A stretch of 30,848 nucleotides of DNA from a virus. Numbering within the stretch: position 1 is the first letter of the stretch; each line of letters opens with the position of its first letter. Below are positions 1 to 30,848 of the stretch, in pieces. The stretch is from positions 1 to 30,848 of IMG/VR virus record IMGVR_UViG_3300033984_000073, one strand, 5' to 3'. The notes beneath the pieces were generated by a model. It was not told the origin of the DNA. It was given only the letters and a program-made list of their open reading frames with translations, and searched no databases. The translations under genes and the position numbers were made by a program.

Positions 1-127
1 CATAATTTGTTTCGCTGTTTCTTCAGATAAAAACTGATATTGTTTGTCCGCGTCCGACAAAGGAAATGATTCGATTTGTGGAGCGCGTGCAGGATCTTCG
101 TTGAACGTCATTAAGAACTTACCCGCG
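1..127. repeat. terminal direct repeat, left copy (circular join)
   Basis: These bases are identical to 30722-30848. The portal gene runs in frame across the join when the two copies are merged. This shows the contig is circular or circularly permuted, with a unique length of 30,721 bp. A repeat of exactly 127 bases equals a common maximum assembler k-mer, so it is more likely an assembly overlap than a real packaged terminal repeat. Confidence 0.95.
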
Positions 128-6475: not shown

Positions 6476-6694
6476 TTAGAAGAAGATTATATAAAATATA
6501 AATATCCAAAACGCGACGTTTACATAAATTGGTGTTAACTTATGCAATCGACACAACCATTTTGATAGTTTGTTTTTGCCGTTCGCGATGCGTCCGTAGT
6601 TGCTTTCGCTTTTTATGTTCAATTTAATGAACTCTAAACAGGCGACCATTGCCCCCGCTTTACTTTGTAGATGTTCCTTTGAAGTCGCTTCCAT
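6476..6694 (-). CDS. small membrane-anchored protein, 72 aa
   Basis: This 72-residue protein starts with ATG 6694, overlapping the end of the tail-tip gene by 35 bases, and stops one base before the tape measure. The first 50 residues are basic and soluble. The C-terminus (VNVAFWIFIFYIIFF) is a hydrophobic anchor running to the last residue. The function is not recognised; its place between tail genes suggests a tail-associated or host-membrane role. Confidence 0.55.
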   Translation of the reverse strand: MEATSKEHLQSKAGAMVACLEFIKLNIKSESNYGRIANGKNKLSKWLCRLHKLTPIYVNVAFWIFIFYIIFF

Positions 6695-9299
6695 TACTTA
6701 TTATTGTTATTGTGTCACCTGCTGCGCTTAGCGTAACGCTTCCGCTACCTTCGACCGTTTCTCCTGTGTATGCTTGTACCGTTAGTGGATTAGCCCCCGA
6801 AACAACGCGTTGTATTATCAATTCACGTCCTGCCGTTGTCGTTGCGGAAGGTAAGTAAATAGTTATGCCGTTGCTCGTTGTATCTGCGAAAATCATTCTG
6901 TCGAAATTCGTTACAACGTAGTCGGTCGTAATTGTTCTAACTGGTTGCGTGATTGAACCGTTGAAGCTCACAGGTGCACCGAAGCGCGTCGGTGCTAACG
7001 AAGGAACTTGTTGCGTAATGAATGAACGCGTTCCGCCGTTAGGCTGCGAGAAACAATCGTTCTTTGCTATGTTCCAATTGTAGCCGAAACGCAAACAACA
7101 TTCTTGCGTTATTGTCGCAGGGTCGCCGTTCGGTGTTTCCCAATTTAAAGACTGGTCTAAGTTAGCGGACACGGGTAAAAGGTCGCAGCCGTTGTCGATG
7201 TCGAGTACGCGAATGAGTTTCACTTTGGTAAGGTCTTGTTCACCTACGACGTAGCCTTGAATTTCAAGAACGCGCCACCAAGAATCTATTATCCATATTT
7301 TATCTGAAAATTGAAACGTGAAAACGTCGTTGAGCGTTAGTGCAAACATTCCTTCTAAGATGCGCGCTTGTCCGTCGAATAGTTCGCGGTAATAGTTACG
7401 CCACCATCTGTTGTAAAGGTTCTCGTATGGGTTTGCTATGATTGTGTGAATAGGTACTTCGGGCGCAAAGTTTAAGTCTTTGTCGGACACCGTTGCGTTC
7501 ATTGTCGAGTAGTTGTTCAAACACTTAACCGCCGTAACAATAACGCTATCTGAAACTTCATCGTACATATTCACGAAGAAGTCGGCGAAATAGTAAAGGA
7601 TGCGTGGTTTCGGTTGTACGAATTGCCCTTCTGCGTTGGTGAAGAATGGAACAACGACGTTTGTATTTTCCACAGGTGCTGAAGGTGTGGACGCGAATGC
7701 TAATTCAACTTTTTCTTCGCCTGTCGCGAACTCGTTGATTACTTCGAAGTCGCTTTCAGTTACTTCGTACCTTCCGTAGATGCGCCCGTTGTCTTTGTAA
7801 ACCGAATTGAAAAAATCTCCGTCTTCGGTATAGGTGAAAGAGAACTTAGACTTTTGCAGGTCGGTCGTTGGCGAGTACATTATGTCTTTCGACAAGTCTA
7901 ATTTCTGCGACCAATTGAGCGTGTTTCCGCTTGCGATGTACTCAACCATTGGTTCAATGCGAAGTGTATTCGGTAGCGTCTTGTCAGCCACGAAAACAAG
8001 GTTGAACATTTTTTGAATCGACGTGATAAAATCAATTTGCTTCATGTCTGGAGCGTTGAATTGCATTACGCAAGTGTCGCCTGTCAACGCCGTTCCAACG
8101 CTTATAAGTTCAACTCCCGTTCCTGTATATCCAACGTTTGCGTTTCCCGTAAAGTCAATTTCAAGGTCTCCGAATTGTTGGTAAATAATCGCGGTAAAAT
8201 AAAACTTTACTTGTTCCCCTGCGGTTAATTGAAGCGTTATGTTTTGGTCGTAAGTCAAGTCATTTGTCAAAGCACTTCCAACACTTATCGCGCTATAAAA
8301 TGCACCGCTGTCAAGATAAAAACCAAATTCAACCGTACCAACCCCAACCGCTCCCAAAGGTCGCGCTTGTCCGTTCATCCAACACTTGAACGTAAATGTT
8401 CCCGTAAATGGTGCGGTGTAAATTCCACTACTCCAATCGTTCCCTGCGTCCTCGTATTCGGTAAAGTTGGTGTACAAATCAAACAAAGAACCCGAACCAT
8501 ACGGAGTGAATGGAACGTTAGTTATTGTAGTCGCAAGACCAACGTTTGAAGCAATGTCATTTAATCCGTTGTTCGCGTTCAAGTATTGCCCGTTCACAAA
8601 TGGAACGTACACGTTATCCAAACAGCCCGCAAGATTGTCGCTCGAATACTGCAAGCCTGCGTCGTTCATTATTTCATCGAACAAGTATTGCGCCTTAACG
8701 GCAGGCGTCATGTGTCCGACGTACAATGGTTTATAAGTCGGTTGCCCTGCAATAACGGTTGAATAAACGGGTTGACCTTCGACGTTACTTGCAGTTAGAT
8801 TCCACTTGTCGCATAGCGTTAGAATCGTGTGTTCGTTAGGTGGTGTTTCAACGTTCGCATGAAGTAAATCGTAGTCAAGGTCACCCGCGACAATCGATTC
8901 AATGTCCTTCAACTTTTTCTCGTTGAGTAGACGTGCGAGGTTTGGAACTTCACCAAAAAACACAACTTCGAATTCGAACAACTTGCCGCTCTGCCAATAA
9001 AGTTTTTTAACCTGAATGTGACCGCTTGCGATTGGTATTGTGTTAACAGTCAACACCGCTTCGACCTTCTTTCGAAAGTCAAACCAACCGTCGAAATTTA
9101 CGTTGAAGATTGCACCGAAGAAGTCTACATTCGTCGCACTTGCAGGAACGCGAAATTCTTGTGAGTAATTGCCTACGGAAGCGAAGTCGGTAATGTCCGT
9201 GAACTTATAGTTCAAGTGCATCTTCTCGTTCTCGTAAAGGTCGAGAATCGCGCTGTTGCCGTTGCTATCCGTTAGCGTTAGAATTACTTGATTCATCAT
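6660..9299 (-). CDS. tail-tip / receptor-binding structural protein, 879 aa
   Basis: This 879-residue virion protein has an N-terminal region (LYENEKMHLNYKFTDITDFA near residues 22-41, then VGNYSQEFRVPAS) recurrent in Bacteroidetes phage tail-tip proteins. A mid domain around 260-390 (GIYTAPFTGTFTFKCWMNGQ) looks like a C1q/TNF- or PA14-like jelly roll that may bind a surface ligand. A baseplate-type region follows, then a C-terminal beta module ending ITIISNGSDFKGTSTK. It probably forms the distal tail hub or receptor-binding tip, comparable in role to Tal/gpJ. The ATG at 9299 overlaps the stop of the preceding gene. Confidence 0.65.
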   Translation of the reverse strand: MMNQVILTLTDSNGNSAILDLYENEKMHLNYKFTDITDFASVGNYSQEFRVPASATNVDFFGAIFNVNFDGWFDFRKKVEAVLTVNTIPIASGHIQVKKLYWQSGKLFEFEVVFFGEVPNLARLLNEKKLKDIESIVAGDLDYDLLHANVETPPNEHTILTLCDKWNLTASNVEGQPVYSTVIAGQPTYKPLYVGHMTPAVKAQYLFDEIMNDAGLQYSSDNLAGCLDNVYVPFVNGQYLNANNGLNDIASNVGLATTITNVPFTPYGSGSLFDLYTNFTEYEDAGNDWSSGIYTAPFTGTFTFKCWMNGQARPLGAVGVGTVEFGFYLDSGAFYSAISVGSALTNDLTYDQNITLQLTAGEQVKFYFTAIIYQQFGDLEIDFTGNANVGYTGTGVELISVGTALTGDTCVMQFNAPDMKQIDFITSIQKMFNLVFVADKTLPNTLRIEPMVEYIASGNTLNWSQKLDLSKDIMYSPTTDLQKSKFSFTYTEDGDFFNSVYKDNGRIYGRYEVTESDFEVINEFATGEEKVELAFASTPSAPVENTNVVVPFFTNAEGQFVQPKPRILYYFADFFVNMYDEVSDSVIVTAVKCLNNYSTMNATVSDKDLNFAPEVPIHTIIANPYENLYNRWWRNYYRELFDGQARILEGMFALTLNDVFTFQFSDKIWIIDSWWRVLEIQGYVVGEQDLTKVKLIRVLDIDNGCDLLPVSANLDQSLNWETPNGDPATITQECCLRFGYNWNIAKNDCFSQPNGGTRSFITQQVPSLAPTRFGAPVSFNGSITQPVRTITTDYVVTNFDRMIFADTTSNGITIYLPSATTTAGRELIIQRVVSGANPLTVQAYTGETVEGSGSVTLSAAGDTITIISNGSDFKGTSTK

Positions 9300-10538: not shown

Positions 10539-11078
10539 TTAAATGTCTTTTAGTTGATTCTCTATTGTTGCTCCAAAGTCTTTGCCGTATGCGTCAATAA
10601 CTTTCGCCTCATATTCGTCCCAAATGTTTTCGTATGCGTAGTCGAACGCCTTCCAACCTTTGATACCGTCGCGTCCTATCTTGCGAGCAATCATAAAGGC
10701 AACTTGTTTCTTGAGTGTTTCCGTTGGCTTCTTAAATTTACCGCTTTCCTTGTCGCGTAGTTTTATCGGTTTGATTCGCATCCAGTCAAGAATTGCGCTC
10801 ACAGGTGGCGGTGTCGCGTTTGGTCTTCTTCCGTTCTCGCGAGCTAGGAAATACTGCGACGCCTTGCCCTTCGCAAAGACCGAAATGTTTATCGATTGTC
10901 CTTTGATTTGCAACCTATAGGCAAGCGACTTTTCGAGCGTTCCACTTGCAACCGCATTCGTGTAGTTGCGCCCTACTTTTCGCTTCATACGATAGTCGGA
11001 CTGCATCAATTCGACAAAGCGTTTAGCCATGTCGTTGACGACCGCAAAGAAGTTGGGTGCGCTCTGTTCGTTAGCCAT
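10539..11078 (-). CDS. gp10-like head-tail joining / tail completion protein, 179 aa
   Basis: This 179-residue basic protein begins MANEQSAPNFFAVVNDMAKR. Features such as an early helix, RPNATPPPVSAILDWMRIK and a Lys-rich middle match HK97 gp10-like neck or tail-completion proteins, in which the 'AREN GRRP..PPP' region precedes a helix. Such proteins join tail and head. It is unusual for it to be located among tail fibre genes rather than near the portal. The start overlaps the 41-residue gene by 8 bases. Confidence 0.6.
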   Translation of the reverse strand: MANEQSAPNFFAVVNDMAKRFVELMQSDYRMKRKVGRNYTNAVASGTLEKSLAYRLQIKGQSINISVFAKGKASQYFLARENGRRPNATPPPVSAILDWMRIKPIKLRDKESGKFKKPTETLKKQVAFMIARKIGRDGIKGWKAFDYAYENIWDEYEAKVIDAYGKDFGATIENQLKDI

Positions 11079-11196: not shown

Positions 11197-13289
11197 CGTG
11201 CTGTTGTTAAGATATTTTCGTACCCAATATAGTCGCAATAAAAACCTCTCGTTGTTATGCCTATTGTTTTTGCTACACCCGTTTTCATTAAGACGTATCT
11301 ACTATTTGATGCAAGCGGAATGTTTGTTTGATGCGTTGCGATAGCTGTACCATTAACGTAAAATGTAACCGATGTACCTGCAGCGTTAATCTCTATTCTT
11401 AATTTATTCCAAGCCGATGCCGTTACTGCCGTTGTTGATGTCGTTAGTGTACGAACCGAGTTGTCCACAGTTACGCATTGCCAATTTGCGCTGGCTGTTG
11501 TTCCGTTTGCCGTGCCGCCTTCGTCGTATGTGATAAACACTCCGTTTGTTTCTGAGCTATTTGAAATGACTGAACCAAAGCCGAAAATCATTCTGTACCT
11601 TTCAAGCGCAGTGCTTAAAGTGTTGATGTTAATTAACGCCTCGTAGTTCCATGCACCACCACCAAACCAAAGTTGTGCCGCTCCCGAGCTGCTGCAATAA
11701 TTGATGTAGTTAGTTGCTGCTGTATTCGTTTGAAAAAATGCAACCCCTTGTTGATTTGTTCTGTTAGGAATCTGCGCTCCTACAATTAAACCTAATGATC
11801 CACCTGAAGCGAATGATTGCGCTCCGTCTAATGTTGCGTTAGTTAAAAAGTCCGTAAAGAAAGATACCATTCTCTTTCCCTTGTCAATAAATGACAAAGC
11901 ATTCACAGCGTCAACTGTTGGAAATTTTACTCCTGTTCCGTCTACTGCTAATGAGTTCTGTTTGTTGGCTGTGTTCTCCGCTGTAAATCCTAAGGCGTCT
12001 TGTTTACCGTTGAACGTAGTCCAATCTGTTGCGCTTAGATAGCCGTCAACGCTTGTTGTCGCTTGCGGAATGGATAGCGTTCTATTCGCTGACAAATCAC
12101 CGCCACCGCTTAGAGGTGCTGTTGTGCTTATTGTTCGCGTTGTTGGTACTTTGCTGCTATCTAAATGTTCTAGCGCATCGTCTGCGTTCGTTCCTGTTAC
12201 TGTTGAATCGTTTTGAACTTGCGAAGTTTTTAACTTACTATGTTGCCATTGAAAAGGCTGTGGTCCTAATGGAGTGCTAACGTATATCCAAGTATCGTCA
12301 ACCGCAGGCGCACCACTTTGGAAATCTACTCCATGAACGCGGTGAACCGTTGGGTTCGGGTATGTTCCCTGCAAGTCTCCACCTGCTGCGCCACTTGGTG
12401 GAAGTGATGTAGGTATTGTCGGCTTGTTAAGTATTTCCGCTACTCCACTCGTTGCGTTCCAATCTGAATTTACTTGTGCTGCGGGAATGGTTGGAAGATT
12501 TGAAAGGTCGTTGTAGTCATTCGAGAAACCAACCGCGCTTATGCTTGTAATGTCAGCCTTCAAAAGAATTTCTTCTTCAAGAGCATCAATAGCCGCTTCA
12601 ATGTCGATAATCGTTTGACAGTCGCCTATTGTTTCGCACGTCAACCCACCGCCTGCTTCGAGCAAGTACCAACCGCGCACCCCTTCGTCGTCCGTTCCGT
12701 AGTAGTAGTTCGGTGCTGGTGTTTCTTCATCGTTCACAAGACTAACGTTTCCGTTTGCATCTCGATTGATTGAATCGATGAACGTCAAGATTGAACCCGT
12801 GCCACCGCTTCCGCTTTCGAAGAAGTCGTTCCATTCCGCAGGAATAGAACACGCGTCCCAATAATACGGAACGAGTAAATCTAAACTAATCGTCCAACCG
12901 GTTAACGTGTGTTGAAACTCTTCTAAGAAGGGTTCAAGACTTACGTTTTGTACTGTGATTAAGTCACCAAACAAAACGCGGTGGTTGGTAATTTCCGCAA
13001 CCAAGTCTTCAGCGATCCGTTGAAGGTCGCTTAATACTTCGCGTTGATATTCGGGTTTATCTTCTTTGTCGCGCGGAAGGTCGGCAAGGACAATCTGAAA
13101 ACTAAACGTCTTCGTTCCTTTTGCGTAGCTCACGTTGGAAGGCACGACGTGCATAAATGGATATTCACCAAACTTTTCAAGGTCGGATACTTCAATCTGT
13201 CCGTGTGAAAATCTTTTAAGAATAAAGTGACCAGACGCAAAGGCGTGGAATCTATCTATTAAGGCGTTGTAGCTTTGAATGTTGGACAT
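11193..13289 (-). CDS. fusion of tail-terminator-like domain and tail fibre, 698 aa
   Basis: Three regions are visible. Residues 1-150 form a compact domain (MSNIQSYNALIDRFHAFASG onward) with strands and helices like tail-terminator or tail-completion proteins. Residues about 150-430 are fibre repeats common in Bacteroidetes phages: GVAEILNKPTIPTS, GGDLQGTYPNPTVHRVHGV and PLSGGGDLSANRTLSI followed by VDGYLSATDWTTFNGK. Residues about 470-698 form a beta jelly-roll, concanavalin/LamG-like, with WNKLRIEINAAGTSVTFYVN, likely a sugar-binding receptor tip. The fusion would put an anchoring domain and an adhesin on one chain. The start lies 38 bases upstream of the frameshifted chaperone stop. Confidence 0.65.
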   Translation of the reverse strand: MSNIQSYNALIDRFHAFASGHFILKRFSHGQIEVSDLEKFGEYPFMHVVPSNVSYAKGTKTFSFQIVLADLPRDKEDKPEYQREVLSDLQRIAEDLVAEITNHRVLFGDLITVQNVSLEPFLEEFQHTLTGWTISLDLLVPYYWDACSIPAEWNDFFESGSGGTGSILTFIDSINRDANGNVSLVNDEETPAPNYYYGTDDEGVRGWYLLEAGGGLTCETIGDCQTIIDIEAAIDALEEEILLKADITSISAVGFSNDYNDLSNLPTIPAAQVNSDWNATSGVAEILNKPTIPTSLPPSGAAGGDLQGTYPNPTVHRVHGVDFQSGAPAVDDTWIYVSTPLGPQPFQWQHSKLKTSQVQNDSTVTGTNADDALEHLDSSKVPTTRTISTTAPLSGGGDLSANRTLSIPQATTSVDGYLSATDWTTFNGKQDALGFTAENTANKQNSLAVDGTGVKFPTVDAVNALSFIDKGKRMVSFFTDFLTNATLDGAQSFASGGSLGLIVGAQIPNRTNQQGVAFFQTNTAATNYINYCSSSGAAQLWFGGGAWNYEALININTLSTALERYRMIFGFGSVISNSSETNGVFITYDEGGTANGTTASANWQCVTVDNSVRTLTTSTTAVTASAWNKLRIEINAAGTSVTFYVNGTAIATHQTNIPLASNSRYVLMKTGVAKTIGITTRGFYCDYIGYENILTTAR

Positions 13290-13536
13290 AATTGTAATCG
13301 ATTAAGTAAGTCATAAATGTAAATATTTCCCACGCTGATTTTTCCGTAATTGCGTCCAATTTAGTTATGTCGCGTCCGCACGCTTCCATAAAAAGATGAT
13401 ACCAACCGTAGCGTCCTAAGACTTGGTTGAGTCCTTCTCGGTCTTCAATTGCTCCGTCAATTCCGTCGTCAACTTCTTCACTTCGTTCTCCAAAAAGTCT
13501 AGCGAAGTGTTGCTTAGTTCGTTGAGCAAAGTCGAA
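13252..13536 (-). CDS. tail assembly chaperone frameshift extension (GT-type), 94 aa
   Basis: A -1 slip at the T run (13536-13542) puts ribosomes into a frame open without interruption from 13536 to a TAG at 13252, adding 94 residues (including FARLFGERSEEVDD, LNQVLGRYGWYHLFMEA, and an end at HSKLQRLNR). It has no credible start codon of its own, lies across the stop of the upstream frame, and explains the gap 13290-13415. The fused product would have 159 + 94 = 253 residues. This is the classic tail-chaperone G/GT design of siphophages, in which the extended form recruits tail tube subunits to the tape measure. Confidence 0.82.
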   Translation of the reverse strand, partial: FDFAQRTKQHFARLFGERSEEVDDGIDGAIEDREGLNQVLGRYGWYHLFMEACGRDITKLDAITEKSAWEIFTFMTYLIDYNYVQHSKLQRLNR

Positions 13537-14012
13537 AAAAAAAGCATCGCGCCGTTGAATTGTTCAAGTGTCATTTGTTCAACGTAGCCCTCAACAAGTT
13601 CTCTGTTTTGTTTGTTGTGTGGTACTATCATGTACTTATTTCCGACGCGCTTTTCAATGGGGCGGTAAAGCGTTCCCATTATCTTGACCATGTTCGTTGA
13701 CACGTCGGAAGCCCACGTTGAAATGTCCGCGTATTCACCCATTGAGATTGAGTAAAGGTCGGGAATGAAACCGAAGTCTTTGTCCTTGATTGTTATCGTT
13801 TCGAAGAACTTCGCGCTTTCGTTCTTCAATGTTTCCTCGAACGCTTGTACTAACGTCGGTAGGTGTTGGAAGGGAATTTGTTCCGCTTGTTCCTTCAGTA
13901 GGTTACTGATGCTAACCAACTTGTCGATGTCGTTCTTCGCGCTGTGGTAGTCAACGTATTGCTTGACGCTAATCGAAGAATAGTCAGCAGGTATGCTTAC
14001 TTTGATGCTCAT
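13416..14012 (-). CDS. tail assembly chaperone (G-type), 198 aa
   Basis: This 198-residue mostly helical protein begins MSIKVSIPADYSSISVKQYV. It has no enzyme motif. The identification rests on the internal slippery T run (codons 157-159, CTT TTT TTT) leading to the -1 extension at 13252-13536, which is the hallmark of siphophage tail assembly chaperones. The shorter form made without slipping ends EQLKTEKDSTKS. It is the first gene of the tail block, after the operator-like repeats at 14239-14315 and a 51-residue gene. Confidence 0.78.
   Translation of the reverse strand: MSIKVSIPADYSSISVKQYVDYHSAKNDIDKLVSISNLLKEQAEQIPFQHLPTLVQAFEETLKNESAKFFETITIKDKDFGFIPDLYSISMGEYADISTWASDVSTNMVKIMGTLYRPIEKRVGNKYMIVPHNKQNRELVEGYVEQMTLEQFNGAMLFFSTLLNELSNTSLDFLENEVKKLTTELTEQLKTEKDSTKS
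13535..13543 (-). other. programmed -1 frameshift slippery site
   Basis: On the minus strand there are nine T in a row. In the chaperone frame the codons read CTT TTT TTT TCG, so T TTT TTT is aligned as a canonical X XXY YYZ heptamer (13542-13536). The 0 and -1 frames overlap and the -1 frame is open for 95 codons after it. No downstream stimulator was modelled. Confidence 0.8.
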
Positions 14013-29848: not shown

Positions 29849-30848
29849 TTAAGGGTATTTTAAAGAACCTCTGTCTGGTCTGTTGATTGGTGCTGTTCCT
29901 TCGATGCCTTTTTGTGGAACGTAAGGGTTATTACCAACACGCTTATCGTTGTTCAATCCATCGTTTGGAAGTATGCGTCCTTTCGAATCGCGTTTGCGAA
30001 TATAAATTAAACGCTTCCAAACATGATGGCAGAAGCACCCCCCGACGAAGCGGAAGAGCGAATAAGTTTGAGACCCCGCAGGAGCAAAATTTCCATTCAC
30101 TCCTTCCTTGCTCATTGCTTCAATATCTTCATAACGAAAGATTGCGCCTAACTGCGACATTTGAACCATTTCTTTGCAGAACTCACGACTATTTTCGCTT
30201 ATGTTTTGTGAATAGGCATAGCGTAATTTATAAAGTCCTCTATCTCCCCACTTAGATTCTTTTTCACCTTGAGCGTCGCTCATTGTCGGCATCTTGTTAC
30301 GCTTTGCAAAGAACTCGCTTGTGTAGTTCATTTCGTTGTCTGGGTCGGTAACATCTTCTTCACTTACCAACTGCCATTCGTCTAAATCGATGTATTCCGC
30401 TTTTTCTTTTAGTACATCAATCCACTCTTTGCCTTGTTCGTCGCTGAAATCATTCTCAGCATCCGCAACTACTTTTTTTTTTAATTCGATTGCTTGTGTC
30501 GTTGGTTCAACAACTAAAACTTCTTCGTCGAATGGCGAGTTCATTTCGATGTTTATCTCTCCCAAAATTGGAGTGAAAACACGTTCAATGATTCTTTGGT
30601 AAGGCTTGATTACTTGATTGTTGAATATCTCCAAACCTACCAACATTTCGTCCTTATTGCTTCCAAATCCTGTTGTGTCTCTAATTCCGTGAATCAAAGG
30701 AGACACAACGCGGTGTCCTACCATAATTTGTTTCGCTGTTTCTTCAGATAAAAACTGATATTGTTTGTCCGCGTCCGACAAAGGAAATGATTCGATTTGT
30801 GGAGCGCGTGCAGGATCTTCGTTGAACGTCATTAAGAACTTACCCGCG
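29849..30848 (-). CDS. phage portal protein, C-terminal part (starts at 831 across the join)
   Basis: This is the remainder of the portal gene that begins at 831. Bases 30722-30848 duplicate 1-127. The unique C-terminal part is 29849-30721 (290 residues plus stop). It includes the helical RRYSFRF-type wing region, VGHRVVSPLIHGIRDTTGFG, an acidic SEEDVTDPDNEMNY linker and a proline-rich end. Anyone annotating the linear sequence would see only a truncated protein here. Confidence 0.82.
   Translation of the reverse strand, partial: AGKFLMTFNEDPARAPQIESFPLSDADKQYQFLSEETAKQIMVGHRVVSPLIHGIRDTTGFGSNKDEMLVGLEIFNNQVIKPYQRIIERVFTPILGEINIEMNSPFDEEVLVVEPTTQAIELKKKVVADAENDFSDEQGKEWIDVLKEKAEYIDLDEWQLVSEEDVTDPDNEMNYTSEFFAKRNKMPTMSDAQGEKESKWGDRGLYKLRYAYSQNISENSREFCKEMVQMSQLGAIFRYEDIEAMSKEGVNGNFAPAGSQTYSLFRFVGGCFCHHVWKRLIYIRKRDSKGRILPNDGLNNDKRVGNNPYVPQKGIEGTAPINRPDRGSLKYP
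30722..30848. repeat. terminal direct repeat, right copy
   Basis: This is an exact copy of 1-127. Removing one copy gives the circular unique sequence of 30,721 bp. Confidence 0.95.

Follow-up and report, generated by a model that had tools for sequence, protein, structure and literature searches.

A gene of the phage genome analysed here appears to encode two proteins through a programmed -1 change of reading frame at a run of nine T; the window, i.e., the whole stretch of DNA that was analysed, comprises the 30,848 nucleotides of IMG/VR virus record IMGVR_UViG_3300033984_000073. Judged from the comparison of sequences, programmed -1 recoding of this gene, by whichever mechanism, is almost certain, and by the same comparison it is anciently conserved. 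Most decoding would read the zero-frame open reading frame, called G, to its end, and a fraction would change to frame -1 on the nine-T run, reading on through a conserved extension of 96 codons, the T part; the predicted products, G with 198 aa and GT with 253 aa, have the sizes given in the initial annotation of this DNA. We propose that, within the ribosome, two tRNA-Phe would slip in tandem by -1 on U_UUU_UUU with no strong RNA stimulator on the 3' side, that G may coat the tape measure and that the T domain of GT may recruit the tail tube protein, the frame slip thereby probably controlling phage tail assembly. The statement as a whole, which unites the two-product gene with a ribosomal slip and a role as a G/GT chaperone pair, is held with moderate confidence, and its parts differ in strength as set out below.

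The slip site and its -1 extension

The features of the locus and of the tail block are collected in Table 1. The run at 13543-13535 of the minus strand consists of exactly nine T, and the G codons at the site are CTT (13544-13542), TTT, TTT and TCG, so that a T_TTT_TTT heptamer is aligned to the zero frame; its coordinates within the nine-T run and its register match those initially described. G ends with its stop at 13416 and is followed by an empty gap of 126 bp (13415-13290), which the T-part ORF covers, as had been claimed; the last 38 nt of this ORF lie within the next gene (start 13289). The -1 frame, expected to stay open past the G stop, indeed does so and is closed by a TAG at 13254-13252 after 96 open codons counted from the slip T.

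Table 1. Positions of the recoded gene, its slip site and the neighbouring tail genes within the window.
Feature	Coordinates	Strand	Remark
Zero-frame ORF, G	13416..14012	minus	198 aa; phrog_32199 family (function not named)
Slip site, nine-T run, CTT TTT TTT TCG	13535..13543	minus	T9/T10 across relatives, same register
T_TTT_TTT heptamer, X_XXY_YYZ register	13536..13542	minus	Read from sequence and relatives
-1 frame extension, T part	13252..13542	minus	96 codons; selection and conserved GWY motif
Doubly coded stretch (G tail and start of T part)	13416..13535	minus	dN/dS, window's cluster
Next gene, 698 aa	11193..13289	minus	N-terminal part similar to P12024L gp42 (BLASTP E 6.5e-4)
P12024L gp43 homologue	10539..11078	minus	Weakly tail completion/Neck1-like
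P12024L gp46 homologue, probable tail-block structural protein	6660..9299	minus	Homology
Weak tape-measure-like protein, 734 aa	4270..6474	minus	phrog_1506, E 4e-4

A first scan of IMG/VR with the 198-aa protein as query yielded 80 loci of 85-98% identity, all of which carry GC-T9-CGAC at the identical codon, and a -1 extension of 95 or 96 codons is present in all 78 that are of sufficient length. Three wider scans added divergent groups and, following removal of duplicates, 172 unique sequences were obtained that form ten protein clusters at 55% identity, with identities between clusters of mostly 20-40%. The T-run stands in the same register in every one of the 172 (nine T in 169, ten T in 3), preceded by a CTT or GTT codon and followed by TCG, TAC, TAT, TGG, TGC or TTG, and the extension measures 83-96 codons wherever it is not interrupted by a contig end; two partial loci stop before the slip site and are uninformative. 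Comparison with related phages thus finds both the heptamer and the -1 ORF, first described from the window, kept in all 172 relatives. All 35 representatives scanned match phrog_32199. Among prophage copies sought in a genome collection, 81 pattern matches contained no confirmed relative.

Beyond the G stop, dN/dS in the -1 frame is 0.086 in the window's cluster (76 sequences; w of 0.9 and 2.6 in the two remaining frames) and 0.035 in the other of the two largest clusters (46 sequences), the frames other than -1 having dN/dS values of at least 0.9 in these two clusters, and in a third cluster pN is 0.165 versus a pS of 0.773. For comparison, G upstream of the slip site has a dN/dS of 0.08-0.14 in the three large clusters. 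These substitution patterns show strong purifying selection on the -1 frame beyond the G stop, and as the slip site and the extension are moreover present in all relatives, they are not a product of chance. In the doubly coded stretch of the window's cluster, w amounts to 0.30 in the zero frame, 0.53 in the -1 frame and 0.87 in the third frame, a constraint in both the zero and the -1 frame which a misread homopolymer would not produce.

A search of viral folds with the G model (mean pLDDT 81) led to gp10 of Flavobacterium phage 6H, and in the Flavobacterium phages 2A, FPSV-D15 and FPSV-F7 (Unahavirus) the homologue is one uninterrupted ORF of 293 aa (phrog_25418). The alignment of the GT profile with this ORF of 2A/FPSV continues across the junction (hhalign E 5e-6), so that the ORF is a remote homologue across both the G and the T part; however, it differs from the gene of the window in being unbroken, with a junction that has no T-run and at which G and T are simply in frame. 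An unbroken ORF spanning the junction speaks strongly for the joined product as a real protein and a functional unit, and by this comparison of sequences the joined frame is a conserved protein. The conserved site, the purifying selection and the in-frame relative together bear out the initially proposed programmed -1 transition that yields a short and a C-terminally extended protein. Phage 6H itself was considered as a frameshifting relative and rejected, since its ORF (gp10, L253:10352-10927) is broken compared with the single ORF in 2A/FPSV; small differences shortly ahead of the junction interrupt it, possibly because of a sequencing error in the 6H record. At about codon 171 the 2A homologue (L254:301-1182) contains an A_AAA_AAA heptamer; from there the -1 frame is open for 55 codons, and the heptamer could in principle give a short form, i.e., the reverse arrangement.

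A G homologue is also carried by the Nonlabens (Persicivirga) phages P12024L and P12024S, which share with the window homologous G and T parts, the nine-T site (ATAC-T9-AT in P12024L, in the same arrangement), its register and similar following genes. They differ in that identity is only about 30% and that the two parts are annotated as two separate hypothetical proteins, gp40 and gp41, in a record that notes no frameshift.

Ribosome or RNA polymerase at the nine-T run

The initial annotation ascribed the frame change to a ribosomal slip on the heptamer. The register required for this is exact, but the nine-T run fits transcriptional slippage too, in which RNA polymerase would add or drop a U on the run and part of the mRNA would carry the GT frame; we regard this alternative as possible, though doubtful. 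The homopolymer has the length (about nine or more A/T) at which such slippage is considered, and it is never shorter than nine T in the 172 sequences. In many bacterial genomes, selection against slippage becomes visible once a run reaches nine A/T (PMC1088944), and transcriptional slippage on 9A/9T is documented (PMC5009743). With the bacterial examples (Thermus dnaX, IS elements, Shigella mxiE) the site shares the nine-base homopolymer as the place of the frame change, but it differs from them by its exact ribosomal heptamer register and in being known from its sequence alone.

Codon usage at the site points in the same direction. Among 159 sequences of three clusters, the Phe codons of the slip site show no change between TTT and TTC and the second is never TTC, whereas other invariant Phe codons in the gene changed between TTT and TTC 1-24 times on the tree; this is the case even though E. 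coli ribosomes slip on UUC as readily as on UUU and U_UU.U_UU.Y belongs to the efficient -1 motifs of this bacterium (PMC4066793). Single-sequence folds for a stimulatory 3' RNA structure gave z values of about 0 in nearly all representatives, the alifold energy just downstream was at or near 0 in clusters 1 and 2 and moderate in cluster 0, and a downstream RNA stimulator shared by the relatives was rejected because folds and alifold had nothing in common. One cluster (L151:4001-4645 and relatives) has an earlier in-register T7, ACT TTT TTT ATT, which represents a natural control for the heptamer; it varies between relatives and its -1 frame stops within 3-6 codons. A run never below T9, a codon that is never TTC, the lack of a shared 3' structure and the unconserved T7 lean, as far as sequences can tell, towards run length.

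Each additional T, however, has another possible reason: the first T occupies the second position of a Val/Leu codon, the ninth occupies the middle position of a Phe/Leu codon of the -1 frame, and a change of T8 to C would turn the -1-frame Phe into Leu. The ninth T was for this reason rejected as proof of run-length selection, the -1 frame needing Phe or Leu there. Slippage of the polymerase moreover does not need the heptamer register, which is exact in every case, and A9/T9 runs occur, at modest frequency, elsewhere in these phages. No published case of transcriptional slippage in a tail chaperone was found in a literature search, and we know of no tail chaperone pair that uses RNA polymerase slippage. 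The known G/GT shifts are described as ribosomal, while early tests in E. coli found U_UUU_UUU to be much less shifty than A_AAA_AAG and frameshift efficiency is higher in P2-like phages (PMC5009743). With the strong prior from known tail chaperones weighed in, the ribosome is ranked above the polymerase, and tandem -1 slippage by the ribosome is the likeliest mechanism and fairly probable; a mixture of ribosomal and polymerase slippage is possible. That the G/GT ratio in P12024L-related phages is set by polymerase slippage on the fixed nine-T run is offered as a tentative proposal.

Role of the two products and the tail gene block

At the sequence level the gene has the trait of lambda-type G/GT genes, a short and an extended product that arise through a -1 shift located late in the first ORF, and this anatomy is typical of G/GT pairs, as are products of such sizes. 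The gene heads a tail block that is syntenic with that of P12024L: the genes after G/T match gp42, gp43 and gp46 of this phage with their order kept, and P12024L gp50 is a tape-measure protein. The start of the 698-aa gene falls inside the -1 ORF, and in P12024L gp42 comes after G/T. Given the G/GT-type anatomy and the position at the tail block, the gene is best read as encoding a siphophage G/GT tail assembly chaperone pair, and we consider this role, deduced from architecture and gene neighbourhood, to be quite probable.

Searches in PHROG, Pfam, PDB sequences and PDB folds gave no named chaperone family or fold for G. Its significant matches in PHROG and in the viral fold search are confined to proteins without a named function, and phrog_32199, phrog_38404 and phrog_25418 all lack one; among the viral folds, the two hits annotated as chaperones were not significant (E 0.6-1.0). 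The T part was modelled poorly (pLDDT 62), and the matches of its profile in PDB, RNA-binding and death-fold proteins with E of at least 0.07, were disregarded. Naming the protein via PDB sequence or fold was therefore rejected for lack of a significant match. Of the initially proposed tail chaperone, the anatomy and the place at the head of a syntenic tail block thus stand, and a family or fold match does not accompany them. Because the similarity test failed and the position is non-classical, the gene is not counted as a proven lambda-type G/GT member.

These same results would suit a real recoding event that yields two lengths of some other tail or connector protein, and so would the single unbroken ORF of the Unahavirus homologue and a tape-measure gene that is not adjacent: about 7 kb with several genes separate the recoded gene from the tape-measure-like gene that follows it. 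We nevertheless judge this alternative to be unlikely in view of the syntenic tail block that the gene heads and of the short-plus-extended anatomy with sizes generally typical of G/GT.

Compared with lambda gpG/gpGT, the chaperone pair proposed here shares a short protein with a rarer C-terminally extended form, the -1 shift and the location in a tail gene block; it differs in that there is no detectable similarity in sequence or solved fold, in that the slip site is a nine-T run and in that the window's gene heads the tail block, whereas the lambda-type gene adjoins the tape measure. In the P2-type tail gene E/E+E' the slip site is a T-run. The likeness to this gene accordingly is that a tail gene is extended in the -1 frame from a slip site of homopolymer T, and the difference lies in the missing family match and in a run of at least nine T in all relatives of the window.

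Further observations concern the surrounding genes. The 698-aa protein seems to be fused from a gp42-like N-terminal part, a tail-fibre-like stretch and a C-terminal SO2946-like domain. A tail tube gene was not identified in the tail block. The ends of the window (1-127 and 30722-30848) form an exact direct repeat of 127 bp, so that the window probably represents a complete genome of 30,721 bp, either circular or circularly permuted. Ten consecutive A on the minus strand (30473-30482, TTA AAA AAA AAA GTA) form a further slip-prone homopolymer within coding sequence; they lie in the portal gene, which spans the junction of the window's ends.

Remaining alternatives and significance for the protein family

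A T part that forms a gene of its own, with an internal start and no frameshift, as annotated for P12024L gp41, is highly improbable. An ATG does precede the conserved GWY motif in P12024L-type phages and in the three cluster-3 loci, and the window has an ATG after GWY, but such an ATG ahead of the motif is absent in 163 of the 169 complete extensions and in the commonest cases the -1 frame is closed 3-27 codons ahead of the run, both of which make a separate start unlikely; the slip site is furthermore invariant and Unahavirus encodes the joined protein, so that this reading is largely refuted. A sequencing or assembly error, with a true run of eight or ten T and one ORF, is refuted for practical purposes, for although homopolymers are error-prone and 6H looks broken while its close relatives have one ORF, 172 different sequences carry the T9/T10 run, as do all independent assemblies and the P12024 isolates, and in the window's cluster selection also acts on the zero-frame tail that follows the run.

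As far as our searches show, recoding is newly recognised for the phrog_32199 family: a recoded two-product gene is now assigned to this widespread and uncharacterised phage protein family, and the only cultured phages close enough to be found annotate G and T of the phrog_32199 type as separate hypothetical proteins. The invariant nine-T run offers a clean natural test of ribosomal versus transcriptional slippage, for which Unahavirus provides an in-frame control. If polymerase slippage were true, this would be, to our knowledge, the first tail chaperone pair made by that route, and it would be so in a large group of phages.
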